Below, in pieces: positions 4,456 to 61,303 of a stretch of 64,000 nt of DNA. Both the position numbers and the translations under genes were made by a program. Numbering within the stretch: the first letter of the stretch is position 1; each line of letters starts with the position of its first letter. The stretch comes from Mycoplasma sp. SG1. Its GTDB lineage: Bacteria; Bacillota_I; Bacilli_A; Mycoplasmatales; SG1. The stretch lies in NCBI RefSeq assembly GCF_023612375.1, contig NZ_CP076852.1, forward strand, positions 62,001-126,000, in the 5' to 3' direction. The notes under the pieces were generated by a model. That model had not been told where the DNA came from and ran no database searches. It saw nothing but the letters and a program-made list of their open reading frames with translations.

Positions 4456-4483
4456 GATATGATTATGGTTTTAAATAAGCTAC

Positions 4484-6439
<1,956 letters not shown>

Positions 6440-6446
6440 TTAAATC

Positions 6447-7181
6447 TTAATTATTTTTTACAACTCTCACTAGAGAATGACTTAAAACTATGTCATGAAA
6501 AATATAGCCTTTACGAATAACTTTAGTGATAGTTCCATTTTCTAATTTCGAAGATGCTTCGTGTTCAATTGCATGATGATATTTTTCATTAAATTTGTCT
6601 CCAACTTTAACAATAATTTCTTGCAATCCTTCTGATAGAATTGCTGATCTTAATTTATCAAGAATCATTTCAAATCCTGATAGTCATTGTTTCATTTCAT
6701 TGTTCAATTCAACATCATAACTATGTTCGATTGCTTTTTCAAAAAAGGTTAAAGGTTCAAGAATTTTTTCAATAAAATTTTTTGCTGAATATTTTTGTTC
6801 AGCTTTTAATTGTTCAATTTTATTGAGATACAAATCATAAGTGTTTTTGGCTTTCATGACTTGTAAATGAGAAGGTTCATAAAGTAAAACTTTTTGTTTT
6901 AACTCTGAATTTAATCCTTGAAGTTTAATAATTGATGCTTCTTGTTCAATTAATTTTTCATTTGATTCTTTGATAAAATTCAATGATTTTTGTAATAGGA
7001 AAAGAATTTGATCGACATCATCTTTTGTTTTATCAGCAAGAAAGAGTTTGTGATCTTTTCTTAATTTTGAAAAATCTGTTTTATCATCAAGCGTAATGCA
7101 TCGATTATCTTTATTTTGAACATGATTGTCTTGATAATCGTTGTCGTGATTTTTTAAGTTGTCTTTTTTAATATGTTTCAC
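6447..7181 (-). CDS. grpE: Nucleotide exchange factor GrpE
   Basis: GrpE releases ADP from DnaK. The 244-residue protein has a long charged N-terminal extension (about 60 residues, many Lys/Asp/Asn), a coiled-coil region (about 70-125) and the C-terminal beta domain with HHAIEHEASS and VIRKGYIFHD, the family signature region. One TGA codon is read as Trp (KQWLSGFE). It is the first gene of the heat-shock operon, downstream of the CIRCE-like operator. hrcA, often next to grpE in other bacteria, is not in this window. Confidence 0.95.
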
Positions 7182-7227
7182 AATTTATTATCAATTTTTG
7201 GTTATATCGCATTAGAAATATTTTTAT

Positions 7228-7254
7228 TTAGCAAATCAATATTTAATATGCTAA
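7228..7254. promoter_or_regulatory. CIRCE-like HrcA operator
   Basis: TTAGCAAAT and ATATGCTAA are separated by exactly nine bases, and 8 of 9 positions pair. The known CIRCE consensus is TTAGCACTC-N9-GAGTGCTAA; here the outer TTAGCA/TGCTAA halves and the N9 spacing are kept while the inner CTC/GAG is lost. It lies 4 bases downstream of a TATAAT box and ahead of grpE, over the expected start of transcription, which suits repression by HrcA. Confidence 0.75.
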
Positions 7255-7258
7255 TAAG

Positions 7259-7264
7259 ATTATA
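7259..7264 (-). promoter_or_regulatory. -10 box of the grpE-dnaK-dnaJ promoter
   Basis: A perfect TATAAT on the minus strand lies immediately upstream of the CIRCE-like repeat and 77 bases before the grpE start. The -35 region (TTTCTT at the 17-base spacing) is poor, which is common in mollicute promoters. Confidence 0.6.
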
Positions 7265-7328
7265 AACAAAAAAATAAAAAAAAGAAATTTTGATTTGAGT
7301 TAAAAATGTAATATAAATTTAATTTCTT

Positions 7329-9518
7329 TTACTTTAAATGTTCGCTTAACTTGCTTTTGTAAATAGATTCTGGTGTTAGATTAAATTTATCTCACAGATA
7401 TTCAGATAAAAAAGGACAAAAGGTTGAAAAGATTTGTAAAAAAGCTTTAGTGTATTCAAGATTGATTTCTGGGTTTTTATATAAATAGTTTATAAATACC
7501 ATAAATTTACTAATAGATGTGTTGAATTTAAAAGCTTCTATATCTTTTGGAACCAATTTAATTGTTTTGTTTCAGGTTTGTTCAAATTCAGGTGATGGAG
7601 TTTTTGTAACTTTGATTAATTCAGTAAAAAAACGATAAACACGTTTTAATCATTTGTTGCTTGCAAAAACACCATGTGGTAGTCATTTTGAATTTAAGTT
7701 AATCGGTCCTATAAACATTTCATAAACTCTTAACGCATCTGCTCCATAGTTATCGATAATTTCATCTGGTGAAACATAGTTATTAGCAGACTTTGACATT
7801 TTTTCGCCTTTATCATTTAAGATTAAACCCTGATTGTATAACATTTTAAAAGGTTCTTGACATGAAACAATTTTTTCATCAAAAAGAAAATGATGTCAAA
7901 ACCTAGCATATAATAAATGTAAAACAGCATGTTCTTTCCCGCCTATATAAAGATCTACAGGTAGCCAATAATTTAAAATGTTTTTCGCTTCCTTTGATTC
8001 TAAACTTAAATAATTATCTTTTGCTTTTAATAAATATCCAATATAGTATCAACAACTACCAGCTCATTGTGGCATAACATGTATTTCTCTAAAAGATAGT
8101 TGATTTGTTTTTGATTTTACTTCTTGCCAATTTTTAAAAAATTTTAATGGGGGGAAAAAATTATAAACTTTATCAAAATCATTTGTTTCAGGAAGGACTA
8201 ATGGTAAATCTGTTTCCTTCATCGGATGCGGATCATTATTATCCAATATGATCGGAAAAGGTTCCCCTCAATAACGTTGCCTTGAAAAAACTCAATCTTT
8301 AAGATGGGTTTTATGACTTTTTATCAATTTGTATTTTAATAAATTTTGATCACTTGAAATATCATTTTCTTCTTTTTGATTATTTAATTCATTTCATATA
8401 GAAGTAAAAAGTTTTTTGTTGTTATTAATATATTCAAAAATAACTTTATTTTCTTTGATATCTTTTCCAAAAATAATTTCTTCGTCAATATTTAAATTGG
8501 AATTAAGTTTAGTGACAAGCAAAATTGGTAAAGATTTAGAATATGAATTAAAATTAATTTTATGATCTAAAATTTTTATAACATCAAAATAGTCTCAATT
8601 TTCAATATTATTTTGATTTTCTTGTTCATACTTTAATACTTCATCAACTAATAATTTTTCAGGATCATAATTTTTAATTAAATATTTGTATATTTCTGAA
8701 TTTTTTGTAATAGCTAAAAAAAGAGGATTAAACGTTTTTAGGTATTTACTTTCAAAAAAAATATCAAAACTTTGTTTAGAAATAGTCCCTTTAATTAAAA
8801 AGCCATTCGTTAATTTTATTCAGTTTTTTTGTAATTTAATAATATCTTTCGGTCATTCAAGATTATCTAAATTATCTTGCAAACGTCTTGCATCACTTGT
8901 AATTTTTAAAACCCATTGCATAATATCTTTCTTTATGACGGGATAACTACCACGTTCTGAAAGAAGTTTTCCGTTACAATTAATAACTTCTTCATTCGCT
9001 AAAACTGTTTTTAATTTTTCACATCAATTAACAGGAATACTTTTTTTAAAAGCTAGTTTTTTCTTAAAAAGTCTTAAAAAAATTAACTGTGTAGTTTTAT
9101 AATAAGCAGGATCTGCTGTATTTATTTCGTATTTATAGTTAAAATAAAAACCAACTCTTTTAATTTGATTTCTAAAATTAGAAATATTTTTTAAAACAAA
9201 ATCCTTTGGAGGTTTATGATGTTTAATTGCATATTGCTCGGCTGGCAGACCAAAAGCATCTCATCCTATTGGTTTAAAAACATTGTAACCTTTTAACAAA
9301 TAATAACGAGCAAAAATATCTGTTGCTAAATAACCACGAATATGTCCGACATGTAAACCATTACTAGATGGATACGGGAACATATCAAGAAAGTATTTTT
9401 TTTGTTTTGATTTATCATTTAAATCTATCTCAAAAAAATCATTATCTTCTCATTTTTTTTTACTATAATCTTCTATTTTTTTGAAGTTATAAATGCTTCT
9501 GTCTTCTTTAATTTCCAT
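7329..9518 (-). CDS. leuS: Leucyl-tRNA synthetase with degenerate editing domain
   Basis: This enzyme charges tRNA-Leu with leucine. The class I signatures are present: [13 protein letters not shown] (HIGH, about residue 55), DWVFSRQRYWGEP (about 410) and [10 protein letters not shown] (KMSKS, about 570). The 729 residues fall short of the usual 800 or more. The CP1 insert (about 233-407) lacks both editing signatures: the TTRPDT segment is replaced by ESKYLKTF, and no GTGAVMAVPxHDxRD-like motif remains. Several TGA codons read as Trp. The C-terminal anticodon-binding domain is short. Aminoacylation is expected to work, while post-transfer editing is probably lost. Confidence 0.95.
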
Positions 9519-12552: not shown

Positions 12553-13413
12553 TTAGTCGTTGTTTTTGTGATTTTGTAAAGCTTGACACTTGGGACAAAA
12601 AAACGTACTTCTTTGATTTTGAACTATTTTTTGAATCGTAGTATTACAGATCTTACAATTTTTACCATTTCGACGATAAACAAAAAGTTCATGTTGAAAT
12701 CTACCATGAATATCTTGTGCTGGTTCAAAAGTTGAAACCGTGCTTCCGCCTAACGCAATTGAATGATTTAATACTTCTCTGCTGAAGTGAATAATGTCTT
12801 TTAATTCTTTTTGATTTAATTGATAGGCTGGGATCGTTGGATGAATCCGTGCTAAAAATAAAATTTCTGAAGCATATATGTTTCCTATCCCGCTTATTAT
12901 TGATTGATCTAACAGTGCTGTTTTGATCGGAAGGCGTTTTTTTGAAAATTTTTTACTTAAATATTCTGATTTTAAATTTAAAGAATTTGCATCTATCCCA
13001 ACATTTATTAAAGGTTTATTAGCAAGAAATGATTTTTCTTTATCAAGTGGGTAAAGAAAAAAAGTACCAAATTTTCTTGTATCCCTATAAATTAGAATTT
13101 TATTATTATTTAAATAAAACAAAATTAAAAGATTACTAATTTTTTCAAAATCAAAATTATTGTCAACAACTAAATATCTGCCTTCCATTCTTAAATGAGA
13201 ACAAAGAACAAAACCATTTAAATAAAATATTAGATGTTTTCCTTTTCTTTCAATATTTTTGAATGTTTGATTTTTTAAATCATTAATAAATTTTTCAGAT
13301 GAAACATTTTTAATAATTTTGGGTCAAAAAACTTTAACATTTAATATTTTTTGATTTAAAATCTTGCTTAAAAGGATATTTTTTACTACTTCTACTTCTG
13401 GTAATTCTGGCAT
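12553..13413 (-). CDS. mutM: Formamidopyrimidine-DNA glycosylase
   Basis: MutM/Fpg removes oxidised purines such as 8-oxoguanine and cuts the abasic site. The N-terminal MPELPEVEVV supplies the catalytic proline and glutamate once the initiator is removed. The helix-two-turn-helix contains SIISGIGNIYASEILF (about 165-180). The C-terminal zinc finger is present as CKICNTTIQK followed by FFCPKCQ. At 286 residues it is full length, with one TGA read as Trp (VFWPK). It lies between the replication gene and the Ppx-like gene, as part of a replication and repair block. Confidence 0.95.
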
Positions 13414-13436
13414 TAAAAATATTTTTTTAATTATAT

Positions 13437-14534
13437 CTATTTAATATTTGGCGTCTTTCCAACATTTGTAAATACTTGATCTTTAGTATGTTTTAGTGGT
13501 TGGATATTTTTAATTTTTCATTTAATAAATTTATTTTTAACAAGAATATCTTTAACTTCAGGAAGATGAGATAAAATCATTGCTAAATAACCATCACGGA
13601 TACTAAAAGTAATTGATTTTATTTCTTTAATTTTAAACTTATTATAAAAACTAATAAAGGTTAACAATGCACAACGAATCGAGTTATAACCAATTTTTAA
13701 AATATGATAGCTTTGTAATTCCTTGTCATTCATTGGCATGATTAAGTTAAACAAACAAATCATGCTCATAATATTATCTTTAATAATTGGGATGTTTGGA
13801 TTTTTTTGAACTAACATTTTATAAAAAACTTTTGTCATTAAAAAATTAATAGATTTTAAAGATGCAGATGATGAAAAAAAGTTCATTCCATAAAAAATAT
13901 TTTCTTTAGTTGAAATTCTTGTTAAATTTCTATCTATTTCGCTTTTAATACTGTTCCAGTCAATTTTATAGTTATGTTTGTGTTTTAAAAGTAAAACCAA
14001 AGATCCGATTTTTAATGATTTTATTTCTGAAATTTTATGTTGTTGACAAATAGTTACTTCACAACTTCCTCCACCATAATCCAAAAGACAATAATTTTGT
14101 CTAGTTTTAGGGTTGTTTGGTAAATAAAAATTAATAAATGCTAAATAAGATATATAACCTTCTCTTCCGCCAACTAAAATATCTATATAAATCCCTGTTT
14201 GTCTATAAATCAACATTTGAATATAGGTATAATTTATAGCCCTTCTTAAAACCTCTGTTCCAAAACAATAAATTTTTGTGTTAGCAAATATCTCGTTTTT
14301 AGAAATACGTAATAAAATATCGCGAAAATCATCAACAATTTTATCAATTACATATTGACTTAAAAGACCATTTTTAAAATGATTTAAAAGTTTAAATAAA
14401 CGACGATAAAAAGGATGCTTAATCAATGTATGATTTTGAAAGTTAATTTGATAAAAAGTACTTTTTATACTATTACTTCCAATATCAATGACAATAAATC
14501 CAGAAAAATAATTTATAAAATTGAGCTTTTGCAT
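13437..14534 (-). CDS. Ppx/GppA-family phosphatase
   Basis: A 365-residue protein of the sugar kinase/Hsp70-like fold that includes exopolyphosphatase and pppGpp phosphatase. The phosphate-binding motifs are VIDIGSNSIKSTF (about 15-27), FGTEVLRRAINY (about 100) and LLDYGGGSCEVTI (about 155). A TGA near the end is read as Trp, adding about 27 residues. The likely reaction is hydrolysis of polyphosphate or (p)ppGpp. The helical C-terminal domain of larger Ppx proteins is absent. Confidence 0.82.
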
Positions 14535-14577
14535 TTTTAAAATTTATTTGTTATTTTATTAATAAAATTATAAAATA

Positions 14578-15480
14578 CTAAGCATAAAATGTTCTAAGTT
14601 TATATTTTTTGTAAAAATCAATAACTTTATCACTACGAATATTTTTATAATATCTATTTATGCTATAGGCATTTATGTTAGGGTTTATGTCTAAACGTTT
14701 ATAAATTGGAATAATTTTCTTGTACAATTCAATTTGATCCAGATGATCTTTTAAGCTGTTTCTGTGCTTAGGAGATGGAATCTTATCGATATTATTTAAA
14801 AGATTTTCAAGTCCATTAAATTTAATTAAATAATTAAGAATTGTTTTTATTCCTCAAGACGGAATTCCCCTTAAATTATCGCTTTGATCGCCATTTAAAA
14901 TTTTATAATCAAGAAAATATTTCATCGGTATCTTAACTTCTTGATTAAAATTTTCTTTCGTAATGTTTAATGGTTTAACCATCCCTTTTTGAATATTACA
15001 AAAAATAATATTATTTTGATTGTTAACTAATTGAAGTAAATCATGATCTGATGAATAAATGTAAATATTAGCATCTGATTTAAACTTTTCGACAATTGTT
15101 CCGATAATATCATCGGCTTCATAATTCTCAATCGATAAAAACGGAACTCCTGCTAATTTTAAAAAATCTTGAATTATTTTAATTTGATAAATAATGTGTT
15201 CAGGAGTTTTTGGTCTTTGAACTTTATAATTTGGAAAATAATCTGTTCTAAAGGTTTTTCTTGAGTAATCAAACGCACAACATATATAATCAAATCTTTC
15301 TTTTTTAATGATGTGGATTAAAAAACGAATAAAACCATAAATAACATTTGTTCATAAATTATCATTTAGGCGCATAACTTTTTCAGTGTTTTTACTGGTT
15401 ATGAAATAGATTCTATAAATAACAGAACTACAATCTACGACAAGAAATTTTTTTAATTTCTTTGGTTGGTTGTTTAACAT
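14578..15480 (-). CDS. 5'-3' exonuclease (PolA N-terminal domain homologue)
   Basis: A 300-residue stand-alone 5'-3' exonuclease of the FEN family, as in other mycoplasmas, where the polymerase part of PolA is missing. Visible metal-binding motifs are FLVVDCSSVIYR (about 12), CAFDYSRKTFR (about 65), the pair ENYEADDIIG (about 118) and YSSDHDLLQL (about 142), and KILNGDQSDNLRGIPSWG (about 190), which is the helix-hairpin-helix region. It would remove RNA primers and flaps. It lies just downstream of dnaE, the usual mollicute order. Confidence 0.9.
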
Positions 15481-43457: not shown

Positions 43458-44450
43458 TTAAAGGGTTGTGTGTTTTTGATAAACTTTACTGATTGAATCG
43501 CCATAAACATTAGCAGCGATGATATCAGATAAAAAGTTAACAAGACTAATAATGTGAAGTTTAGGGAAATGTTTTTCTTTTGATAATGGGATTGAATCTG
43601 AAACAATAACTTCTTCAATTGAATCGCATTGATTTAAATTTTTACAAGCATCACCGCTGAAAACAGCATGAGTTGCGATAACATAAATTTTTTTAGCTCC
43701 AAATTGATTTAATTTATCACATCCACGAATAATCGTTCCCCCACTGTCAATGATGTCATCAATCATAATACAAATTTTGTCCTTGACATTTCCTAAAATA
43801 TTCATAACTTCAGCAACATTTGGTTTCGGTCTTCTTTTATCAATAATAGCGATTTCTAAATCTGCAGCTGTTGCAAGTTGTCTAGCTCGCGCAATTCCTC
43901 CTTGGTCAGGAGATACAATGATACAATCTTTTTTGGGATATTTATTGAAAATATTTGTTGCTAAATATTTATAAATTTCAGTAACAGCATGCAAATCATC
44001 AACTGGGATGTTGAAAAAACCTTGAATTTGTGATGAATGTAAATCAAAGGTTGTTATCCGATGACAACCAATCGATGTTAGTAAGTCAGCCACTAATTTA
44101 GCAGTAATTGGTTCTCTTCCATGCACTTTTCGATCTTGACGAGCGTAACCAAAATATGGCATAACAACGTAAATTCGTTTAGCACTGGCTCTTTTTAGTG
44201 AATCTATAGCGATTAAAAGTTCCATTAACGAATCATTAACAGGAGTTGATGTTGATTGAATTAAAAAAACTCTTTTATCACGAACTGATGAAAGAATCCG
44301 AACTATCATTTCTTGATCAAGAAAGTGACGAACTTCAACTTCTCCTAATTTTAAATTTGTTTTTAAGGCAACTTTTTTAGCAATTTCATAACCTTTACTT
44401 AAACCAAAAATAATAACATCATCTTTTTTTTGATTGTTAGTAGAGTTCAT
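43458..44450 (-). CDS. prs: Ribose-phosphate pyrophosphokinase
   Basis: Prs makes PRPP from ribose 5-phosphate and ATP. That PRPP feeds hpt, pncB and pyrE in this same window. The 330 residues have VEVRHFLDQEMIVRI (about 37), YARQDRKVHGREPITAKLV (about 100), DLHSSQIQGFF (about 136) and the PRPP-binding loop IMIDDIIDSGGTI (about 227). It is 4 bases after the GlmU-like gene, the conserved glmU-prs pairing. Confidence 0.97.
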   Translation of the reverse strand: MNSTNNQKKDDVIIFGLSKGYEIAKKVALKTNLKLGEVEVRHFLDQEMIVRILSSVRDKRVFLIQSTSTPVNDSLMELLIAIDSLKRASAKRIYVVMPYFGYARQDRKVHGREPITAKLVADLLTSIGCHRITTFDLHSSQIQGFFNIPVDDLHAVTEIYKYLATNIFNKYPKKDCIIVSPDQGGIARARQLATAADLEIAIIDKRRPKPNVAEVMNILGNVKDKICIMIDDIIDSGGTIIRGCDKLNQFGAKKIYVIATHAVFSGDACKNLNQCDSIEEVIVSDSIPLSKEKHFPKLHIISLVNFLSDIIAANVYGDSISKVYQKHTTL

Positions 44451-46528: not shown

Positions 46529-47920
46529 TTACAGTAATTTATTATTCAAAAGATGCTTAAATTCTTCGATTCTAGATAATAAAATTCTTTTACCCAAGAT
46601 TTGTCATAAATCAATGATCGGAGAGCCGATTAATTTTTTCGTTGTCGCGATTCTTAATGTTTTGAAAAATAATATCTTATTTGTTTTTTTAGATCCAACG
46701 AATAATTGTAAAAGTTTTTCGGTTATTTTTTTTAATGAATTTAAAGAAAAATCAGACTTTTCTAACTCTATTTTGGCTTGATTAGTTATTTCTAATATTT
46801 GATCAACATAATTTTTCTGTTCATTTAAAAAATTAATTACTTCTTTATCATATTCAACTACATCAAAAAAAACATCTCCTTTTGTTAAAAATAAATCAAT
46901 TTTTTTTAATTGTGGTTTTAAATAAATTAATCCTTTTTTAATTGTTTCAGTAAAATAAATATTATTTTTTAAAAATCATTCTTTAGTCTCTTTGATAAAA
47001 ATTTTGTCATCTTTAGCTTTTAAATGTTCTTGATTGAATCATAAAAGTTTATCCATGTCAAAACTAGCTGAGGCTTTGTTAAGGTTTTTAATTGTGAATT
47101 TTTTAATCATCTCTTCTAAAGAAAATAATTCTTTTTCAGTTGAATATCAACCTAAAAAAAGAAGAAAATTATTAACGGCTTCTGGTAAATAGTTTTGATC
47201 TTTAAATTGTGAAATAGTTTGAACAACGTTTTCATTTCGTTTTGATAATTTCTTCTTTGTTGTTTTATCTACAATTAAAGGTAAATGAATATAACGGGGT
47301 GGTTCTCAATTCAAATATTTATAAATTAAAAGTTGTTTTGGAGTGTTAGAAACGTGTTCTTGTCCTCTAATAACGTCGGTTATTTCAAAAAGTTTATCAT
47401 CAATAACATTCGCAAAATTATAAGATGGAGTTTGATCTGATTTGATTAAAACAAAGTCGTTTAACTCATTGCTGTTAATTTTCGTTTCTCCTAAAACACC
47501 ATCATCTCAACTTAAAATAATATCTTTTTTTACTTTCAAACGAATCGCTATTCCTTCTTTATTTAGATGGTTGTTGTTTGAAGCAGATGAATAATAAGCA
47601 AGGCCTTGATCGATTAATTGTTTTGCTAATTTGAGATAAATATCTTTTCTTTCTGATTGAAAATATGAACCGTATTTAGGGTTTGGATTGATATGTGATT
47701 CGTCAGGGATAATTTTTAATCAAATTAAATCTTCATATAAACTTATAAAACTTTTTTGTTGATTACGATCAAGATCGGTATCTTCAATTCTTAAAATAAA
47801 AAGACCATTATTATGTTTGGCGTATAAATAATTAAATAAAGCTGTTCTTGCCCCTCCAACGTGTAGTTCCCCGGTTGGACTAGGTGCAAATCTGGTTCTG
47901 ATTATTTTTTGATTTTTCAT
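46529..47920 (-). CDS. gltX: Glutamyl-tRNA synthetase
   Basis: This enzyme charges tRNA-Glu (and in many Gram-positives tRNA-Gln). The 463 residues have [20 protein letters not shown] (HIGH class, about 11-30), [11 protein letters not shown] (about 44) and LSKRNENVV (KMSKS-like, about 245). TGA is read as Trp throughout. It follows carB by 21 bases, so it may be read from the pyrimidine transcript. Confidence 0.97.
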
Positions 47921-47941: not shown

Positions 47942-50900
47942 TTATAAATTTGAAATTAAATATTTCATTTTTAAACAAAGATTTGAAATAACCAAGGCTA
48001 AGTTAATTGAAGTAAATACCATTATTTCCCTTGATATCGCTTCTTCTTGAATTATTTTGATATCTTTATTTCTTTCTCAACTTTCAGAACTTGCAATATT
48101 AACAATAAAACTGACTTTTTGTTGATAAATGAGGTCTAAAATTTCACTTTTCTTTTTTAATTTATTAATTTGAATTGTGTCAAGATCATGTAATTTTAAA
48201 AATTTATTCGTTCCTGGGGTACTGAAAATAGTATAACCAACACTTAATAAATTTTTGGCTATTTGAATTAATTTTTCTCGATCTTGAGTATTTCTATGAC
48301 ATGATAAAATAACGGTTCTATGTTTTAAAATATCAATATTAGATGCTAGTAACGCTTTGTATAAAGCTTTATCGAAAGTATGATCAATCGCCATTGCTTC
48401 TCCAGTTGATTTCATTTCAGGTCCAAGCAGTAAACTTGTTACTTTGGTTAATTTATTAAATGAAAAAGTAGGAACTTTAACAAAAATTCTTCTTTTTTCA
48501 TCATTTTGGTGAAAATCAAAATAATTCGTATACCCAAGCTCTTTTAATGTTTTTTTCTCAATAATAATCTTAATCGCTAAATCGATAATATTTGTTTTTG
48601 TTATTTTTGAAATATAAGGGATTGAGCGACTGCTTCTAACGTTAATTTCTAAAACATAAACTTGATCTTTAAAAATAATAAATTGAATATTGACAAGTCC
48701 GATAATTTTTAATTTTCGACAAATTGTTTTTCCTGCTTTAAGAATTTTATCTTTAAATTCTTTTTTTAAAGTCGATGGAAAAAATACGGTTGAATCCCCG
48801 CTATGAACTCCTGCTGTCTCGATATGTTCCATTAGTCCTGGAATAAATATGTCCACTCCGTCAGAAACTAAATCAACTTCAACTTCTGTCCCTTGAAGAT
48901 AAGAATCAAGGTATAAAGGTTTATCATGACTTATTTTATACGTTTTTAAAGAATCAATTAACATCGTTGCAGAATAAATTATTTGCATCGCTTCTCCGCC
49001 AATAACATAGCTGGGTCTAATAACGACAGGATAGCCTATTTTTCCAGCATTAAGATAAGCTTCTTTATGTGAATAGGCGGTTAAATTTTTTGGATGAGGG
49101 ATGTTGTTGTCGCTTAAAAATTTAGCAAACTCAACCCTATCTTCAGAAATATTAACTATATCATTTGATGAACCCAAAATATTAATATTTGTTTTTGCTA
49201 AATTATTAATTAAAGAAATGGCTGTTTGTCCACCAAATTGTAATAAAACGCCATGCGGTGCTGAAAGGTTAAAAATATTCATAACATCTTCATACGTAAT
49301 CGGTTCAAAAAAGATTTGATTTAACATTCTAAAATCAGTTGAAAGGGTTTCAGGATTATTGTTAATAATGATAACTGGTTTTTGATAAACTTTTTCAAGC
49401 GATAAAACAGAATGAACGGTAGCATAATCAAATTCTACTCCCTGCCCAATTTTAATCGGTCCTGAACCAATAATAAAGATTGAATCTTTTTTAGGTTTGT
49501 AATCATTTTCAAGACCATTATAGGTTGAATATAAATAACTTGATTTAAATTTAAACTCAGCAGCACAACTATCAATTGATTTATAAACTGGATGGATTTT
49601 TTCTTGATGACGATATTGAAAAATATCTTCAATCGAAACATTTCATAACTTACTAATTCAATCATCGCTTAGACCATGTTTTTTAGCTAAAATAAAATAT
49701 TTTTGATTAAAATGGTTCTGTTCTAATTTATGTTCAATCTCTGCTATTTTTTTGAATTGATGTAATCAAAAAAGATCAATTTTAGTCTTTTTTCAAATAG
49801 TTTGACAACTTATTTTTCGTTTTAATAATTGATAAATTTGAAAATATCATTCCCCGTTTGGAGTTTTAATTAATTTTAACAATTCACTGGTTGAAGTATT
49901 TTTTAAATGTTCAAGATTAAAATCTAAATATTTTAAATTAATTGATCGGATTGCTTTTAAAAAAGCTTCACAAAAATTCAAGCCAATCGCCATCGCTTCT
50001 CCGGTTGCTTGCATTTGCGTATTAATATGTTGATCTTTGGTTTTAAATTTATCAAAAGGAAATTGTGGAAATTTAACAACTATGTAATCAAAGGAAGGTT
50101 CAAACGAAGCCTTTATTTTGCCGTTTTTAGGATTAATATAAATTTCGCTTAAATTGTAACCAACCGCTAATTTAGCACAAACTCACGCAATCGGATACCC
50201 TGATGCTTTTGAAGCTAAAGCGCTGCTTCTTGAAACCCTTGGATTAATTTCAATCACATATATTTGGTTATCATCAGGATTAACAGCAAATTGAACATTA
50301 CATCCTCCAATTAATTTTAAATTAGAAATAATTTTATGCGCTGTAGTTCTTAAACGCTGATACATATCATTTGTTAAAGTTAAAGAAGGACAAACAACGC
50401 ATGAATCACCAGTATGTATGCCAACAGGATCAATATTTTCCATGTTACAAATTGTCACTATTTGACCTGATTTATCACGAATAACCTCGTATTCAATTTC
50501 TTTGAAACCATAAATAACAGGTTCAATTAAAACTTCATTAATCGGTGAAAGTTTTAAAGCTTGTTCAATTGTTTTTATGAATTCTTCTTTCGTTTTACAA
50601 ATTCCACTTCCAAGCCCGCCAAGCGTAAAAGAAGGACGAATAATAACTGGAAGTTTAATCACTTTTAATCAACTTAAACCATCTTTTAAATTGCTAACAA
50701 TTTTTGACCTTAAAAAAGGAACGTTAATTGATTCTAAAAATTGACAAAATTGATGACGATTTTCTGAAAGTTTAACAACGTCAGTACTAACACCAATAAC
50801 TTCAATATTATGTTTATCTAAAATTTTTTTATCTTTTAATTTAATAAGTAAATTTAAGGCAATTTGACCACCAAACCCCCCAAGAATAGCATCTGGTTTT

Positions 50901-51139
50901 TCTTTGTTAAGAACTTCTTCAACGAATGTTACAGTTAACGGTTCAAAATATACCCTTGTTGTTATTTTTTCGTCGGTCATAATAGTTGAAGGATTAGGAT
51001 TGATTAAAATAACTTCATATCCTTCTTCTAAAAGACTTAAACAGGCTTGAGTTCCGCTGTAGTCAAACTCAGCCCCTTGTCCAATCATAATTGGTCCAGA
51101 GCCAATAACTAAAATTTTTTTTATATCTTTTCTTTTCAT
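47942..51139 (-). CDS. carB: Carbamoyl-phosphate synthase large chain
   Basis: CarB uses ammonia from CarA, bicarbonate and two ATP to make carbamoyl phosphate. At 1065 residues it is full length. The two homologous halves are seen from [17 protein letters not shown] (about 13) and [16 protein letters not shown] (about 555), with ATP-grasp motifs [12 protein letters not shown] and [12 protein letters not shown], and [19 protein letters not shown] in the first half. The C-terminal allosteric (MGS-like) domain is present. More than twelve TGA codons read as Trp. It lies 11 bases after carA and has no frameshift that I can find. Confidence 0.96.
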
Positions 51140-51150
51140 TTAATCTACTT

Positions 51151-52257
51151 TTAAATTCTTTTATAAAATTCTTTGAAAATATCAACACATTCCTCGGGTC
51201 CGGGGGCTGCTTCTGGGTGAAATTGAACTGAATAGATTCTACCGTCTTCACTTTCAATTCCCTCGTTTGATAGATCAAGCAAAGAAATGTAATTAAAAAC
51301 TATTTTTTTATCCATCAAAATTTTATTCTTATTCGCTAAATCCAAATAATAATCGTGATTTTGTGATGTTATGAAAACTTTTTTAGATATTAAATTTTGA
51401 ACAGGATGATTAATAGAATGATGGCCAAAAGGTAATCTTTTAACTTCAAATCCTAGCGCTAAACCAATTAACTGATGTCCAAGACAAATACCTAAAACTG
51501 TTTCATTATTTTTGATCATTTCTTTAATTTCGCCAATAACATTTTTTAAATCATGTGGATCTCCTGGCCCATTACTAAAAAAATAAGCATTCGGATGATA
51601 TTTTTTTAGATCTTGATATTTTGTATCTCAGGGAACAATTATTAAATTAAGATTAAAGTTTTTAAAATAATTAATAATTGAGTTTTTAACTCCAATATCA
51701 TAAATTACTAATGTTTTTGGTGCTTTTTGATCAATAAAAATAAATTTTGAATCTTTATCTTGGCTAATTTTTTGAACATGATTGTTTAATTTTGTCTTTT
51801 CTAATAATAAAAGCAGTTTAGAAGTTGGAGTGGGTGCAGGCGCAATTGCTACTTTTGAAGCGCCATTATCACGGATATATTTTGTTAATGCTCTTGTATC
51901 GACATTAAAAAGAACTGGAATATTGTTTTCTTCAGTTCATGTTGAAAAATCAATAAATTGATCATTATTTTTAAGATTGTTAACCGGAAAAGATTCGATT
52001 TGATTGACAATAACTGCTAAAGGCTGGATTTTTTTTGATTCATTAAAATTTTTTGGATAAATAGGATATGTTCCGATTAAAGGAAAAGTAAAAACTAAAA
52101 TCTGTAAACTATAACTTGGATCGGTTAAAACTTCTTGATAACCAACAACTGAAGTATTAAAAATAATATCTCCGATTAGAATGTTATCTAACTGATAATT
52201 AGTCAAAGCTAGAAAAGTTTTTTTATTTTCAAATACTATTTTTACTTTTTTAGGCAT
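51151..52257 (-). CDS. carA: Carbamoyl-phosphate synthase small chain
   Basis: CarA is the glutamine amidotransferase subunit that supplies ammonia to CarB. The 368 residues include the N-terminal CPSase domain with [16 protein letters not shown] (about 35) and the class I GATase domain with [10 protein letters not shown] (about 208), nucleophile Cys in [17 protein letters not shown] (about 238-254), and the His-Glu pair in [10 protein letters not shown] (about 345). Gaps to pyrC and carB are 11-12 bases, which fits an operon. Confidence 0.95.
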
Positions 52258-52269
52258 ATTAAATTTATT

Positions 52270-53559
52270 TTAAAAGATTGTGATTAAAATATTGTTTTTA
52301 ATTAAATACTTCGGCCACCCTTGAAGCGTTTTATTTAATAAAGGTGTATTTTTACTTTTTGAAACGATATTGTCTTCTGTAACCTTTTTGGTATGTAATA
52401 AATCAATAATAACAAGTTTCGCTTTCATCCCTACTTCTATGTAATGAGGGGTTGTAAAAATTAAAGCAGCTGGAGCTGTTGTTAATTTTTCAAGAATAAG
52501 TGGTAATGGTACTTTTTTCGTTTTAATTAAATAAGTGTAAAGGCAAGGGAAACAAAATTCAGTTCCAATAATTCCATACATTCCAGTCCTTAAATCTTTT
52601 TTTTCATGTTTACAATGAGGAGCGTGGTCGGTGACTATCATGTCAATAGCCCCTTTGTTAAATTTATTAATTAAATAAGTCTGCCAACTTTTTGTTGATA
52701 GTGGGGGGTTCATTTTAAAATTAGCATCATCGGTTTTGATCATATCATTATTTAAACAAAGATGATGCGGAGTTATTTCACAAGTTACATACACACCTGC
52801 CTGTTTTGCTTTTGAAATATGTTGAATTGTCTGCGGAGTTGAAATATGCTGGATGTGTAAATGGGCGTTGATATTGCGATTTAATTCAATATCCCTTGCA
52901 ACTAAATGACTTTCGTATTCTTGATTTAAAATTGAAATATTATTGTCGACAGCAAATTGACATGGATAAACTACTCCGTTGTTAGTTCTATGTTCTTCAT
53001 GAACAAGAATTGAAGACTTATATTTTTTAGCATTAATCAAAGCTTGTTGCATCATTTCTTTTGATAAAACGGGCGCTCCATCATCTGAAAATAAATTCGT
53101 TAGTTTAACAAGTTCTTGAAAATTAACCAGATTCTGAACACCATTTTTTCATTCAGTAACTGATCCAACACTTTTAACATTAACAACTTGTGTTTTATCT
53201 AAAGTTCTTTGAACTTGCTGATAATTTAAAAGATTAGATGGTCTAGGATTAACGTTTCCCATTGCTAAAACATCTAAAAACCCTCCAACAAGACATCCAA
53301 CCTCAAAAGTAGAAATTTCTTCCTTTTCTTCAAAACCTGGATTTCTAGTATGAGCGTGTCCATCAAAAAAACTTGGCGTAATTAAATAATTCTTACAATC
53401 TAAGACATCAGAATTAGCTGCAAAATGTGAAATTTTAGGGGCAATTTTAATAATTTTAGAATTCTTTATTTCGATGTCTAAAAATTCAATTTTTTTCTGG
53501 TAATATACTTTTGCATTAATTAAATAAAGGTGTGTAATTTTTTTAAACTTAAAAATCAT
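52270..53559 (-). CDS. pyrC: Dihydroorotase (type I)
   Basis: PyrC cyclises carbamoyl aspartate to dihydroorotate. It is 429 residues. The first metal-binding motif is DGHAHTRNPG (about 67), which fits DGHxHxRxPG of type I enzymes. Others are FSDDGAPV (about 160), HIQHIST (about 224), EITPHHL (about 250), FKMNPPLST (about 268) and VTDHAPH (about 298). The ligands look complete, although some neighbouring residues differ (AMGNVNPRPS for the usual MPNTxP). It is 3 bases after pyrB and 12 before carA. Confidence 0.93.
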
Positions 53560-53562
53560 ATT

Positions 53563-54459
53563 TTAAGATTTATTTTTAGAAATATATTCTAAAATAGCAA
53601 TTCTTGTAAAAAGTCCGTTTTCTACTTGATCAAGGATTTTTGATTTAGGTTGATATACTAAATCGGTTTCAATTTCTCAATTACGATTAACAGGACCGGG
53701 ATGAAGAAAAATGGCGTTAGACTTTAATCTTTTGTAATTTAGAGAATTTAAACCATACAATCTGTTGTATGTTTTAGGATCGTGTAAAAGTTTATTTTCT
53801 CTTTCAGCTTCTAAAAATCGTTCATTTTGAATTCTTAAAAAAATAACGACATCCATTTCTTCAATAATATCATTAAAGTTGTAGGTATCTATTTCATATC
53901 CATCATAGTTAACTTTTTCATAACAACAAAGATAAACCTCAAAATTTAATCTTTTAAATAGTTTATAGTTGCTATAACAAACTCTAGAATGATTTAAATC
54001 GCCAACTATTGCAATCTTTAAATTTTTAAATCTATGAAAATGTTCATAAATGGTCACTAAATCTAACAAAGACTGCGATGGATGACTATTAACTCCATCG
54101 CCAGCATTAACAATATTTATATTTTTAATTGATTCTAGCGATTTATAATAGTGATTTTCTCCGCTTCTAATAATAAAATTCGCTATCTTTAACTGCTTTA
54201 AAGTTAAAATAGTGTCATATAACGTTTCTTTTTTTAAGAAACTAGAAGTATTCGTTTCTAAAATACAATAAGTTGAAGCAGTAGAAGATAATGCTTTTTG
54301 AAAAGAAATGTTTGTTCTAGTTGAAGGCTCAAAAAATATAAGACAGGCAGATAAATTTAATTTAGGGATATCTTTTTGATTGTTTTTAAAATAAAGAGCT
54401 CTTAAAACAAGCTTTTTTATGTCATCAATTGAAAAATTATCAAGTGAAGTAAAATTCAT
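53563..54459 (-). CDS. pyrB: Aspartate carbamoyltransferase catalytic subunit
   Basis: PyrB joins carbamoyl phosphate and aspartate. The 298 residues have the carbamoyl phosphate motif FFEPSTRTNISFQ (about 42-54), SSFLKKETLYDT (about 70-81, catalytic Lys) and DGVNSHPSQSLLDL (about 118-131). The motif HPGPVNR (about 255), where ornithine carbamoyltransferase would have HCLP, marks it as an aspartate enzyme. TGA read as Trp extends the C-terminal. No pyrI regulatory subunit is present nearby, as in Gram-positives. Confidence 0.95.
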
Positions 54460-54492
54460 ATAATTTTAAATTTTTATCTATTATAAAAAATT

Positions 54493-55092
54493 TTACAATG
54501 TATTTAGAAAGATTTGAAGTTGAACAGCATCGTTTTGCGTAATTTTGTTTTCTTCAAGGGCGGATTCTACAACTTCATTAATATTAGTTAAAGAATGAAT
54601 TTTATAATCGTGAAGATTTTTTTCTGATTTGTGAGTTAAATAATTAAAAATTGAAATAACCCCAAGCACTTTATATCCATGGTTTTCAAAAATGTTAATT
54701 GTTTGAATCGTACTTAAGCCGGTTGCTATCACATCTTCGATAATAACAATTTGATCATCTAATGATACTTCACCCTCAATATTTTTTCTAGTACCGTGGA
54801 TTTTTTGAGTTGGGCGAACATATCCACTTTTTAAATTTAAAAGATAAGAAACAGCGACAGCATGACCAATTGAAGCTGTTGATATGCCTGAAATAAAAGT
54901 AGCGGTTGGAAAATGACGTTTAACTAAATCTGCTATATTATTTCATATAATATCTCTCTCTTTTAACTTACTAAAAAGAATTCTGTTGTCAATATAAATT
55001 GGTGATATAACACCGCTTGATCATTTATATTTATTAACAAAGTTCAAATTTATAACTTTACATTGTACTAATAATTTCGCTATATTTTTCAT
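54493..55092 (-). CDS. pyrE: Orotate phosphoribosyltransferase
   Basis: PyrE makes OMP from orotate and PRPP. The 199 residues have the substrate strand SSGVISPIYIDNRILFS (about 25), a positively charged loop YVRPTQKIHGTRKNIEG (about 92), and the PRPP-binding motif VIIEDVIATGLST (about 115-127). Several TGA codons are read as Trp. It starts 3 bases after pyrD. Confidence 0.93.
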
Positions 55093-55095
55093 GTT

Positions 55096-56019
55096 TTAAT
55101 ATTTTTTTTCTAAAAATGTTTCTAAACTAAAGTTGTTTTTGGTTAAAAAAATGTTTAAGTCGCTCATAATTTTTATGTAAACATTCTCATCATAAAAATT
55201 TGCAGATCCTACTTGTATCATTTCCGCTCCTGCTTTAAAATAATCTAAAACATCTTTGAATGTTGTTATCCCCCCGCATCCAATAACAGGAATTGTAGTT
55301 AAAGCCTTTAACTTATAAATTTCAGCAAGAACTAAATGCTTAATCGCTGGACCGCTCATTCCTGAGTATATTTTTTCAAAATAATGTTCATTCTTTTTAA
55401 GACCTGGAACAAAACCAGGAATAGAGTTCGACACTGTAATGGCGTCTATCCCGACTGAATTTATAAAGTTAATGTTTTTTTGAATTATCCCGATAATTAT
55501 ACTACTTACTTTTATAAAAATCTTTTTTTCTGTTTGACTTCTGATTTTTTTTAATAAATTTAAAATATTTGTTTCAGAAAAATAATTATTGTTTGTTTCT
55601 TTTTTAATATTTGGGCAACTAAAATTTATTTCATACCCGATTATTTGTGAGTATTGATTAAGATCTGGGATAACCTTTAAAACTTCCTCTTCATCTCCAA
55701 TAACTGAAACAATAATTTTGATTTCAGGATATTTTTTTAAAACTGGTACTAAATAAAACTTCTTAAAATCTTCAAGACCAGGGTTTCTTAAACCAATTGA
55801 ATTAAAAATATAATTTTGGCCGACATATATTTTATTTCCGACATTGCCAACTAATGGTCTAAAAGTAATTGTTTTAGTAACAACACAATCTAAAACAGAT
55901 TTATTCTTTAAGTAAAAATTCTCAAAATCAAAAGGAATGGTTCCAGATGCTGGAAGAATAAAAGACTTAAGATTTAATTTTTCAAAAAAAAACTTTTTTT
56001 TAATTTTATCTCTATTCAT
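55096..56019 (-). CDS. pyrD: Dihydroorotate dehydrogenase (class 1)
   Basis: PyrD oxidises dihydroorotate to orotate using FMN. The 307 residues have ASGTIPFDFENF (about 24), NSIGLRNPGLEDF (about 72), the catalytic Cys loop EINFSCPN (about 130), and FMN-binding IPVIGCGGITTFKDVLDYFKAGA-like sequence (about 240-262). The Cys marks class 1 (class 2 enzymes use Ser). Its neighbour is a PyrK-like subunit, so class 1B, which passes electrons to NAD, is the likely type. Confidence 0.93.
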   Translation of the reverse strand: MNRDKIKKKFFFEKLNLKSFILPASGTIPFDFENFYLKNKSVLDCVVTKTITFRPLVGNVGNKIYVGQNYIFNSIGLRNPGLEDFKKFYLVPVLKKYPEIKIIVSVIGDEEEVLKVIPDLNQYSQIIGYEINFSCPNIKKETNNNYFSETNILNLLKKIRSQTEKKIFIKVSSIIIGIIQKNINFINSVGIDAITVSNSIPGFVPGLKKNEHYFEKIYSGMSGPAIKHLVLAEIYKLKALTTIPVIGCGGITTFKDVLDYFKAGAEMIQVGSANFYDENVYIKIMSDLNIFLTKNNFSLETFLEKKY

Positions 56020-56034
56020 TTTTATCCCGTTTGG

Positions 56035-56784
56035 TTACCTATTTAATTTTATCAATGGATTGATGCATGTTTGATAGCAGTGGTCGCTAAAAGATTGAAC
56101 ACACCCGCCGCAACCACGATTTTTACATATAAAAAATGGCGGTCTAAGGATGTAGATATTATCTTTAATTTCTTTTTTTAAAAAATCAATAAATATATTA
56201 TCAAAGGTACAGTCAACGACTAATGAACTTGTTTCTTGTTTGGTTTTTTGTAAAAAATTTTTTAAAGCGGATTTCTTGAAAAAAACTTTAAAATTAAGAA
56301 TATCTTTTAAAGATCCAAAAAGATTTTTCACTTTAGGCGGAAGATCTGTCTTATTTAAATAAATAATTTCATAATCATTGTTTAAAGTCTTGACCAATCT
56401 TGATATGTATAAAAAAGAAAAATTATCAACTAAAAAAATAATTTTTTTTTCTTTTTTCAATCTATTAATGAAATAAAAGATATGGGGTGAAATTTGTATT
56501 TTTGATTTTATTAAAAAATGATAATTTTCTTCTGTTAACAAATCTCCGCCATTAATTCTAAAATAGGCAATAATTCTCTTTTTATCATAATCTATTTTGT
56601 AATTAACAATCAAACAAAAAAGTAAAAAAAATGGAAGTTTCAAAGAAAAAGAAACTTCATTCTTATCGAATAAATTTTTTATATTGTCTGTTAACTCTAA
56701 CTCAATGTAAATGGTATTGAAGTTTATAACCTCAAACTCTTCTATCTCTGTGTATATAATCCTATTCTTGATTAAATTGGTCAT
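56035..56784 (-). CDS. pyrK: Divergent PyrK-like electron transfer subunit
   Basis: A 249-residue protein in the place of PyrK, the FAD and [2Fe-2S] subunit that takes electrons from PyrD. The C-terminal cysteine cluster is preserved: ICKNRGCGGCVQSF then SDHCYQTC, matching the iron-sulfur loop. The FAD motif (RPxS) and the GGG nucleotide-binding stretch of normal PyrK are not visible; the first is replaced by LKLPFFLLFCLIVNYKI. The ATG at 56784, inside the end of pyrF by 23 bases, is the likely start. The role is inferred from the cysteines and from position after pyrF and before pyrD. Confidence 0.65.
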   Translation of the reverse strand: MTNLIKNRIIYTEIEEFEVINFNTIYIELELTDNIKNLFDKNEVSFSLKLPFFLLFCLIVNYKIDYDKKRIIAYFRINGGDLLTEENYHFLIKSKIQISPHIFYFINRLKKEKKIIFLVDNFSFLYISRLVKTLNNDYEIIYLNKTDLPPKVKNLFGSLKDILNFKVFFKKSALKNFLQKTKQETSSLVVDCTFDNIFIDFLKKEIKDNIYILRPPFFICKNRGCGGCVQSFSDHCYQTCINPLIKLNR

Positions 56785-57489
56785 ATATTTTTTTATACAT
56801 TTGTAATGGATTATCAGAATTAATAATTGTTCTTCCAACTACTAGATAATCAACTTTTTCTTTTTTATAAGCTGAAGTTAATGAAGCATTTCTTGCATGT
56901 AAAAACTTTTTATTTTGATCACTAATCATTCCGCCAGGACAAATAGTTATTATTTTGGGAAATTTCTTTTTAATGGTCTTGCTTTCTTGAATTGAGCAAA
57001 TAACAGCATGACAACTTAATCGATTTAAATCTAAAAGATCGATGCTAAAATCAATCAAACTTAATTTTTCTTGATGTCAAATCTTTTTATATTCTTGATC
57101 GTTGATTGTAGTTAAAAATGGAACCAATACAGTAGCGCAATTTTTAAGTCTTGTGTGAATAATGTTAACGCTATCAAAGCCAGTTCATGGATGGATTGTA
57201 ACCCATTTTATTTTTAAATTTTTTAATAAATCTGCAACGTTTGAGATTGTTGATGGTGTATCACAAAGTTTTAAATCAAGAAAAATTTCATAACCATCGT
57301 TGATTAATTTTTCAACAAATGCAAGACCGGCTTTATAAAAAAGTAAATAGCCGATTTTTAAACGTGGTTTAAAGGGAAATGTTTTATAAAAGAATAAAAT
57401 TCTTCTTCTGAAAAAAAATCACAAGCAATAAAAATATTGTTTTTAAAATTATTGTTTTTCCAAAAATTTATTAATTGCTGTTCTTTCAC
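56762..57489 (-). pseudogene. pyrF: Orotidine-5'-phosphate decarboxylase, read in two frames (frameshift)
   Basis: PyrF makes UMP from OMP. From a GTG start at 57489, the first frame gives 43 residues (with NIFIACDFFSEEEF) and stops at 57358. The homologous rest continues in the -1 frame: KPRLKIGYLLFYKAGLAF, the catalytic IFLDLKLCDTPSTISNVADL, and C-terminal ICPGGMI and DYLVVGRTII. A complete family-like product of about 240 residues needs one -1 shift. The shift point coincides with the heptamer T TTA AAC (57367-57373) in the zero frame, with a hairpin downstream. It may be a programmed frameshift, a base deletion or a sequencing error. Confidence 0.82.
57328..57373 (-). promoter_or_regulatory. 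Candidate -1 frameshift signal in pyrF
   Basis: On the minus strand the heptamer T TTA AAC is in the correct zero-frame phase (CCT TTA AAC). Thirteen bases further begins a hairpin: CGGCT(A)TTTA pairs with TAAAGCCG around a T-rich loop, with one bulged A. These are the two parts of a classical -1 programmed frameshift site. That it functions is inference. Confidence 0.35.
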
Positions 57490-57559
57490 AAAAAAATAAC
57501 ATTTTTGAATTAATTATAAACTACGTTTAATGTGAAAATAAGTTTTTTAATTATTAATT

Positions 57560-59178
57560 TTAACTAACAGCAGCTTTAATAAAGTTTAAAATCAATCGAT
57601 TTGGTTTATTTGGATAACTTGTAAATTCTGGATGAAATTGACAACTGACAAAAAATTTATAATTTTTTAATTCAAAAATTTCAACTAAGTCGAGGTTTTT
57701 CTTTTGTCATGATAAAATCCTGAAAAAGACACCCCGTGCTCTTTAAAAACTTTTATATAATCTTGATTAAATTCATAACGATGACGATGACGTTCATAAA
57801 CTATGTTTTTATTGTCATAATATTTCGCTGTTTTTGTATCTTTGACTAAATGAACAGGATAAGCACCTAATCTTAAAGTTCCTCCTAAGTTTTTATCTTT
57901 TTCTTTGTCAGGAAGAATTAATAATATTTTATGATCTGTTTTTTCGTTAACTTCGGTTGTATTTGCATCTTTCAAATTACAGATATTTCTTGCTATATCA
58001 ACAGAAGCTGCGTGCATCCCAAAACAAATTCCCAAATATGGAATATTTTTTTCTCTTGCGTATTTTGAAGCAAGTACTTTTCCTTCAAAACCATTTTTAT
58101 CAAAACCACCAGCTACAACTATACCATTCAAATTAAATTCTGATAAATACTGAGCATAACTTTTTTCTGTAATTTTGTTTGCATCGATAAAAATAATATT
58201 TATTTTTTTCTCTAGAAAATAGCTTGCATGTTTTAATGATTCATTAAGTGATAAATAAGCATCTTTCAATTGAATATATTTACCAACTAATCCAATCGTA
58301 AATAATTTTTGTTGTGTTTCAGTTCTTACTACACAATCATTAAATTTTTTCCAACTTGATAAAGATATTTTTTTATAAGGTAAGTTTAAATTTTTTAAAA
58401 TAACCTTATCAAGTTCTTGGTTGTGGAAATCAACTGGAATATAGTAAATAGATTTATGATCAACACATAAGAATACTTCATCGTTTTTTACATTACAAAA
58501 CATAATTATCTTATCTCTTGTTTTTTGATTAAAAGGTGCTTTTGAACGAGCAAAAATTAAGCTTGGTTGAATTCCTGATCTACCTAATTCTTTAATCGCA
58601 TGTTGAATCGGTTTTGTTTTATGTTCTTGAGATGTATCAAGATAAGGAACGTAACCAACAATATTAATTAACGTATTATGATTATCTTCTTCAATTTGAA
58701 GTTGTCTAATCGCTTCTAGAAATGGCTCAAGCTCAATATCTCCAACGGTCCCGCCTATTTCAACTACAATAATATCAGCTTTTTCAGGGTTTGTTTTAAT
58801 TCACTTTTTGATTAAATTTGTGATATGAGGAACAATTTGAACTGTTTTACCTAAAAACGCTCCATTTCTTTCATGGTTAATTATTGTTTTATAGATTGAT
58901 CCAGCAGTTATGTTTGAAAGTTTAGAAGTATTTATTTCAGTGAAACGTTCATAATTACCCAAATCTAAATCTGTTTCCTGTCCATCATTTGTAACATAAA
59001 CTTCGCCGTGTTCAAGCGGATTCATAGTTCCGGGATCAACATTTAAATAGGGGTCTATTTTTTTAATTAATATTTTATAGTTGTGATTTTTTAATAATAA
59101 CGCAATTGATGAAGTAATTAACCCTTTCCCAAGCGATGAAAGAACGCCGCCAATAATAAATATATATTTTGTTTCCAT
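57560..59178 (-). pseudogene. pyrG: CTP synthase, frameshifted in the glutaminase domain
   Basis: PyrG turns UTP into CTP. The synthase domain begins [15 protein letters not shown] (about 6) and has [15 protein letters not shown] (about 39) and EIGGTVGDIE (about 140). The glutaminase domain has LGICFGMHAASVDIARN (nucleophile Cys). The first frame stops at 57685, after [10 protein letters not shown]. The homologous end ([11 protein letters not shown] and [10 protein letters not shown] with the catalytic His-Glu) is in the -1 frame to 57560, so one base seems lost from the A-rich tract around 57700-57720. About 540 residues would result. Without repair the amidotransferase site is incomplete. 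Confidence 0.88.
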
Positions 59179-59215: not shown

Positions 59216-59605
59216 TTATTTATTTTCTTCAGTTTCTTCAATATCTTCATCAAAGATATTAGTTGGTTCGTCTGAGTCATCAGACTCTTCTAGATCTCCT
59301 TCAAGTTCTTTATCTTCGATTTCTTCAAAATAGTGAACTTTTGAAATTTCTTTTGACACATCAGAAATTTTTAAAAATTTTCTTAAAAATCATTGATTGT
59401 TTCCAAGCATAATGAATCTCTTATCTAAAATTAATTCAATATAAAAATCCGTAATTAATTTTTTATTTTCTCCATCTGTTAAGTTAAGTTTTTTAGCAAT
59501 ATAATCTCAAAGATCATAAAAATTAATTTTTTCTTTAATCTCTTCAATATATTCTTTGGCTAAATTTTTTAGTGTGTCTGTTGTAATAATTCTTGGGTTA
59601 TCCAT
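59216..59605 (-). CDS. rpoE: RNA polymerase delta subunit
   Basis: RpoE (delta) is an RNA polymerase subunit of low-GC Gram-positives that improves recycling and promoter specificity. The 129 residues consist of an N-terminal winged-helix HARE domain (FYDLWDYIAKKLNL, about 29-42, and DKRFIMLGNNQWFLRKF, about 62-78) and a very acidic tail (Glu/Asp-rich, ending EETEENK). It stands between argS and pyrG, its place in Bacillus. Confidence 0.9.
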
Positions 59606-59623: not shown

Positions 59624-61303
59624 TTATAATTGTTTTAATGATTTTATTTTTAACAAATCAAAGCATGTTTCAAGATGCTTTTTAAGATGTAAAATAATTT
59701 TAATCTTTTTATTATAAATAAAGTCTGATTGGTTTAATATTTTTTCTTGGTTATAAAATGAATGAAAGCGTTTTGATAATTTTATAAGATGGGTGTGTAA
59801 AAAGACTGGATTTAAATTTTGAATACAATTTTTTAAGACTTGAAAAAAACTAATTGCTTGGATTAATAACTTTCTTTCAGATTCATTCAGAATGAAATTA
59901 TCTAAATTTAAATCCTTTATCTTGTCTAATCTTTCTTTTGGAACTTTTTTCAGTAATGATATTATTCTTAAATATCCATATTGACAATAATAATATAAAT
60001 TATTATTATTTTTTATTTTTAATAAGTCTAAATTAATATGAAGATGGGAGTCAGTTGATACTGATATAAGAAAAAATCGTAAAATATCTGCTCCAAAATG
60101 ATTATAAAGATCATCTGCGTTAATAACATTTTTATTCCTTTTAGACATCTTTGTAACTTCGTTATTATTTTTTAAAATAGAAACAAATTGAATTAATCCA
60201 AATTGTAAATGTTCAAGTGGCATTCCCATTTCTTTACAAATGGCTGTAATCCGATTAACATAACCGTGATGATCGGCCCCTCATATATTTATAAGATGAT
60301 TAAAGCCTTTCATAATACGATAATAATGATAACATATATCGCCCAAAATATAAGTTGAAGAATTATCTTCTTTGTATAAAACCCTATCTATTGAATCATT
60401 GTATTTTGTTGTTTTAAGTCAAACTTTTTCATTTTTTTGATAAATAAAGTTATTTTCATTTAATTTATCTAAACTGGGTTTTGCGTATTTTTGAATCATT
60501 TCTTTTTCACTTATGAATTGATCAAAATCAATTTTAAAGTTTTTTAAAGTTTTTTTGATTTTTTCTAAAATATAATTCAACCCTTTTTGACTAAAATTTT
60601 GAATAAGTTCGCTTGTTATGTTTTGATTATTTAAAAAATATTCTTTATTGAATTTATTTAAGGGGTCATTAACAATCAACTTTGAAATATCATCAATATA
60701 TGCAGATTGATAAAGTTTGATTTTTTCATCAACAATATAGGAGTTTAAATTTAATTTATTTTGAAAATTATTAATAATTGAGTAACCTAAATGTTGAATT
60801 TGATTTCCTGAATCATTAATGTAAAAATATCTTGTAATATTAACATTTAAATACTTTAAAATGTTAGCTAATACATCGCCAACTATTCCGTTTCTAAGGT
60901 GTCCTAAATGTAATGGTCCGGTTGGATTAGCAGAAACATATTCAATATTTACAGATTTATTTGTAAGCGATATTTGAAACGGATCTAAACTTTTATTAAA
61001 AAAATGAAACAAAGTGCTATCTGCAAAAAAAATATTAAAAAATTGATTTTGAATCGTTGTTTTCTCAATTACTATTTTATTAAAAATAGATAAAGATAAA
61101 ATGTTTTTTAATTCTGCTTCAATCTCTTCAATCTTAATATTTGGATTTGCTTTTTTATATCAAAAAATAAAATTGGTAGATATATGTGAAAGATTAATAT
61201 TCTGATTAAAAAAGAAATGAATTTTTTTCAATTCATTTTCTGATATTTTAAATTTAATTTTAATGTTTTCTTTAAATAGCTCTATAAAATTAAAAATACT
61301 CAT
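59624..61303 (-). CDS. argS: Arginyl-tRNA synthetase
   Basis: This enzyme charges tRNA-Arg. The 559 residues have an N-terminal add-1 domain, EYVSANPTGPLHLGHLRNGI (HIGH, about 122-140), WGADHHGYVNRI (about 342), TKMSKRNKNVI (KMSKS-like, about 385) and the DALR-type helical anticodon domain. Several TGA codons are read as Trp. It lies 18 bases before rpoE. Confidence 0.96.

Follow-up and report, generated by a model that had tools for sequence, protein, structure and literature searches.

The locus lies on the minus strand of the window, by which we mean the whole 64-kb stretch (1-64000) that was analysed, and spans positions 47942-59178 with pyrG, pyrF, a pyrK-like gene, pyrD, pyrE, pyrB, pyrC, carA and carB, all nine of them on this one strand, as the earlier note had described. 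Open reading frames were read with the code in which TGA specifies tryptophan. carB (47942..51139) encodes a carbamoyl-phosphate synthase large subunit of 1065 aa that matches NF003671 with 1280 bits and TIGR01369 with 1261 bits, and its alignment with E. coli CarB (1bxr) shows the ATP-grasp residues conserved in both halves. The glutaminase subunit is encoded by carA (51151..52257; 368 aa; TIGR01368, 332 bits, above the cut-off), which carries the motifs GICLGHQ and QFHPEA. pyrC (52270..53559; 429 aa; TIGR00857, above the cut-off) encodes a type I dihydroorotase in which the metal and catalytic motifs HAHTR, DDG, HIQH and TDHAPH are present in the alignment with 4yiw, and pyrB (53563..54459; 298 aa; NF002032, above the cut-off) encodes the aspartate carbamoyltransferase catalytic chain, with STRT, the K/E loop, HPSQ and HPGPVNR present in the alignment with 6pnz. 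The orotate phosphoribosyltransferase gene pyrE (54493..55092; 199 aa) reaches 102 bits against TIGR00336, just below the cut-off of 106.8, and its product contains the PRPP motif EDVIATG and the loop KIHG. pyrD (55096..56019; 307 aa) encodes the FMN subunit of a class 1B-type dihydroorotate dehydrogenase, whose best PDB match is Lactococcus lactis PyrDB (1ep1; E 2e-37), with the cysteine of SCPN conserved.

The remaining three genes are less regular. The probable pyrK (56035..56790; 251 aa) owes its start and its identity to its position and a cysteine motif. The main open part of pyrF (56762..57424; orotidine-5'-phosphate decarboxylase) matches NF001273 with 111 bits and PF00215 with 86 bits and carries the conserved motifs DLKxxD and VGRT; its probable N-terminus, running from about 57489 in a different frame (57380..57489; VKEQQLINFWKNNNFKNNIFIACDFFSEEEFYSFIKHFP), is separated from it by a one-base shift near an AAA run. 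The CTP synthase gene pyrG (57685..59178; TIGR00337, 628 bits) is cut short where AAAAA carries a one-base shift and stops before the last catalytic motif, while its C-terminal tail with QFHPEF was read in another frame (57560..57690) and ends at about 57560. A tblastn search with PyrG of the closest homologous genome, G001, likewise placed a frame change at about 57690.

Thus, the gene identities proposed earlier were borne out by strong NCBIfam matches for eight genes (carB, carA, pyrB, pyrC and pyrG above their curated cut-offs, pyrD and pyrF clear and below theirs), but not for pyrK, which matched no family in NCBIfam or Pfam. All six enzymatic steps of the UMP pathway (carAB and pyrBCDEF) are encoded, with pyrF readable only across its frameshift, which supports the central claim of a complete gene set from bicarbonate, glutamine and aspartate to UMP in a mollicute that reads TGA as tryptophan. 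Dead catalytic residues, which had been named as the sign of a non-working pathway, were not seen: the catalytic residues are conserved in the structure-based alignments of CarB, PyrD, PyrB and PyrC, and in the motifs of CarA, PyrE and PyrF as read by eye. From pyrF through carB, the intergenic gaps are -77, 15, 3, 33, 3, 12 and 11 bases, so that the description of gaps mostly under 35 bases or overlapping holds for this run of genes, but not for pyrG, which stands 260 bases from pyrF as assembled, a distance that falls to about 70 if errors account for the shifts. The statement that all these genes use TGA for tryptophan was too broad, because such codons occur in seven of the nine, and pyrD and pyrK have no tryptophan codon at all. 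Scans for promoters and terminators gave no more signal than shuffled sequences, and neither a tRNA gene nor a match to Rfam was found in the 64-kb window.

Both breaks, in pyrF and in pyrG, are one-base shifts at a short run of A, and they may mean either that the genes are damaged or that the assembly is. A decaying operon, in which pyrF and pyrG are true pseudogenes, pyrK is eroded, the pathway is dead and the cell takes up pyrimidines by some unknown route, would account for finding two frameshifts together with a pyrK that can hardly be recognised within one 11-kb stretch. However, we consider it quite improbable. A screen of 104 G001 genes against 344 kb of the studied genome, which misses short gene ends and left pyrF unflagged, found frame changes in three genes, namely pyrG, gpmI (in a T run) and dnaB (in an A run inside the Walker A motif); the one-base homopolymer frameshifts in dnaB and gpmI lie at about 8590 and about 3950 of their stretches. 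Because dnaB and gpmI share the same type of defect, all four frameshifts are taken as most likely assembly errors, and the completeness score of the assembly, 81%, fits this reading. Decay is further opposed by the six other genes, carA, carB, pyrB, pyrC, pyrD and pyrE, which are full length with their active-site motifs in place, by the lack of upp, udk and tdk discussed below, and by pyrG, which is generally not a dispensable gene. The earlier note had overlooked these frameshifts, as well as the erosion of pyrK and the missing salvage genes.

Class 1B PyrD normally requires PyrK, and it counts against the favoured reading that the open reading frame between pyrF and pyrD can hardly be recognised as such. 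BLAST showed no significant similarity between this candidate and PyrK of G001, and in a profile comparison with hhalign only its last 26 columns align, weakly, at the Fe-S site. There, the pattern C-x4-C-x2-C-x11-C aligns with canonical PyrK and has the spacing of a 2Fe-2S site, and both the length of the candidate and its position, which is that of the canonical pyrK in G001, are as expected. On the basis of position, length and the four-cysteine motif, it is probably pyrK. Of the features of class 1B, we found the 1B-type PyrD with its active-site cysteine and the 2Fe-2S cysteines of PyrK, but the FAD motif (RRPxS) and the glycine-rich NAD motif were not recognisable in the alignment of the candidate. 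The AlphaFold model, with a mean pLDDT of 45.5, was too poor for use. Homologues of SufS and SufU are present in the studied genome and make Fe-S assembly plausible.

The flanking genes, also on the minus strand, place the locus in a wider context. gltX (46529..47920; TIGR00464) follows directly after carB, prs (43458..44450; TIGR01251/NF002320) encodes the PRPP synthase that supplies PyrE, and upstream of pyrG lie rpoE, encoding the RNA polymerase delta subunit (59216..59605; TIGR04567), and argS (59624..61303; TIGR00456). G001, a genome of 647,830 bases from another family (f2), has the same order pyrF-K-D-E-B-C-carA-carB-gltX with argS-rpoE-pyrG nearby, and differs in having a canonical pyrK and in the fusion of pyrB and pyrC into one frame of 711 aa in the order ATCase-dihydroorotase (12675-14807 of its stretch), whereas in the window the two genes, in the same frame, are separated by the TAA stop of pyrB and 3 bases before the start of pyrC. 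In the window, the block HD-argS-rpoE-pyrG is situated upstream of pyrF, while in G001 it comes downstream of gltX. Because of this different placement, pyrG is a neighbour and not a member of the pyr operon, to which it had been assigned earlier. The CarB proteins of the two genomes are 51% identical, and a collection of genome contigs yielded best matches of only 47% and no close relatives. Elsewhere in the window, from 210 to 42900, there are many long minus-strand open reading frames, the longest of 994 aa, and matches between them and G001 are few.

This synteny at gltX and argS also largely refutes contamination or misassembly of the cluster, which we regard as extremely improbable. Nothing points to it directly apart from a completeness of only 81%, and it is opposed by the single contig of 622,752 bases that makes up the genome, by the GC content, which is 24-30% here and 26% in the genome as sampled, and by the TGA tryptophan codons. 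Compared with the pyr operon of Bacilli (pyrB-C-AA-AB-K-D-F-E), which we found in that order in the outgroups, the window has an equal gene set and the core B-C-carA-carB in order, but the halves are swapped, with F-K-D-E standing before B-C-carA-carB.

The tree of five concatenated genes (pyrB, pyrC, carA, pyrE and pyrF) joined the window with G001 (support 100/100), then with the genomes of g18 (100/100) and then with those of g32 (100/99), and this clade, which spans the families f1, f2, f7 and f8, persisted when the window branch was removed (98). With 2.22 changes per column, the window has a very long branch, and its exact place in the tree is therefore unsure. For the same five genes, a clade of all members of the order was not rejected, and the tree constrained in this way even obtained a higher score than the free tree from the quick search, which means that this search was not exact. 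In the carB tree, the window, G001 and g18 form one clade with support 100; joining g32 to it was not favoured, but also not rejected (p 0.156). Among Clostridia and related lineages, the carB genes of the f9/g43 genomes occupy two separate positions, and a tree in which carB of the whole order forms a single clade was rejected (p 2e-4). For g43, which comprises gut-type mollicutes, this placement suggests transfer or replacement of carB.

Transfer therefore occurs in the order, and as an alternative to retention from the mollicute ancestor, the cluster could have entered the ancestor of this lineage horizontally, in a single event or in several. We consider this unlikely, since the five other genes unite the window with G001, g18 and g32 in one clade across four families, and since the genes are the same set as in the Bacilli operon. 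The clade and the shared gene order support ancestral retention over recent transfer, and the simplest reading of the trees would be retention from a shared ancestor with many losses and with replacement of carB in g43. Of the two origins named in the earlier note, an ancestral remnant or a transferred cluster, the first is thus probably correct, and so is the view that the genes have long been resident in this lineage. An ancestral origin of mollicute pyrimidine genes was argued earlier (PMC3563533), and our trees add phylogenetic support to this older proposal of a mollicute ancestor that was still synthesising pyrimidines.

De novo pyrimidine genes in a mollicute are a known kind of finding and not unique, and the rarity implied in the earlier note was overstated. 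A full-length carB, defined by a match that exceeds the family cut-off, was counted in 28 of the 320 genomes of the order (the studied genome, G001, two genomes of g18, five of g32, and for the remainder genomes that belong to g43). Spiroplasma melliferum and Mycoplasma penetrans have published pyr genes (PMC3563533, PMC3749518) and resemble the window in having retained pyrimidine genes, but their set begins from arginine (arcABC), whereas the window adds carAB. A de novo pyrimidine pathway has also been published for host-associated marine mollicutes, namely M. marinum, M. todarodis and a Mollicutes MAG from an oyster (PMC8125052). What is new, judging from the genes found, is that the studied genome and G001 combine the order pyrF-K-D-E-B-C-carA-carB with the lack of upp, udk and tdk.

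upp is present in 292 of the 320 genomes of the order (239 of the 248 of good quality), and was found neither in G001 nor in the studied genome, where udk and tdk were also searched for without a match; at 81% completeness, such absences weigh less than they would in a clean genome. udk is missing from G001 and from some other genomes of the order as well, and tdk was present in all 16 other genomes tested besides G001. A match to tdk in G001 proved to be RecA, and weak matches to upp there were Prs and Hpt, and these were rejected. Both genomes retain thyA, pyrH, prs and a pyrimidine-nucleoside phosphorylase; nucleosides could therefore still be degraded, but with the genes found the conversion of uracil or uridine to UMP would not be possible. 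In the absence of upp, udk and tdk, both genomes probably have no source of UMP other than de novo synthesis, the inverse of the usual mollicute state, and this would explain why the operon was retained.

Taken together, we consider it likely that a very reduced and divergent mollicute has retained the ancestral pyr operon of Bacilli in rearranged form, with the frameshifts being assembly errors and de novo synthesis the sole route to UMP. The ancestral operon would have been rearranged to pyrF-K-D-E-B-C-carA-carB, its products are predicted to make UMP from bicarbonate, glutamine, ATP, aspartate and PRPP, and pyrH, pyrG and thyA would lead from UMP to CTP and dTMP. The genes and their motifs, the order shared with G001, the place in the trees and the lack of the salvage genes were observed directly, whereas the activity and essentiality of the pathway and the electron acceptor of PyrD are what we infer from these genes. 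A bolder reading, which we put forward only tentatively, is that two deep mollicute lineages of about 0.62-0.65 Mb kept the ancestral pyr operon, lost the salvage of uracil, uridine and thymidine and became wholly dependent on de novo synthesis, and that PyrD of the window may hand its electrons, via a rewired PyrK with the Fe-S site kept and the FAD and NAD sites lost, to a partner other than NAD.

Mollicutes are the model of biosynthesis loss and of life by salvage. A lineage of about 0.62 Mb with pyrimidine synthesis and without salvage indicates that the habitat decides which redundant half goes, and it suggests a host niche in which free uracil and nucleosides are scarce, or a pyrimidine-supplying symbiont. 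The part that we consider worth following is that salvage was lost in the two genomes with a common gene order. The lineage itself is very divergent: the studied genome is the sole member of its family among the 320 genomes of its order, and its 16S rRNA, compared with 19 rows, reaches only 75% identity with the nearest of them and forms a long unplaced branch in the tree; a 16S rRNA was looked for in G001 and not found. Outside the window, the studied genome also carries an agmatine deiminase cluster (3790-8590 of its stretch) consisting of carbamate kinase, agmatine deiminase, an antiporter and putrescine carbamoyltransferase, which may provide carbamoyl phosphate as a second source or may consume it.
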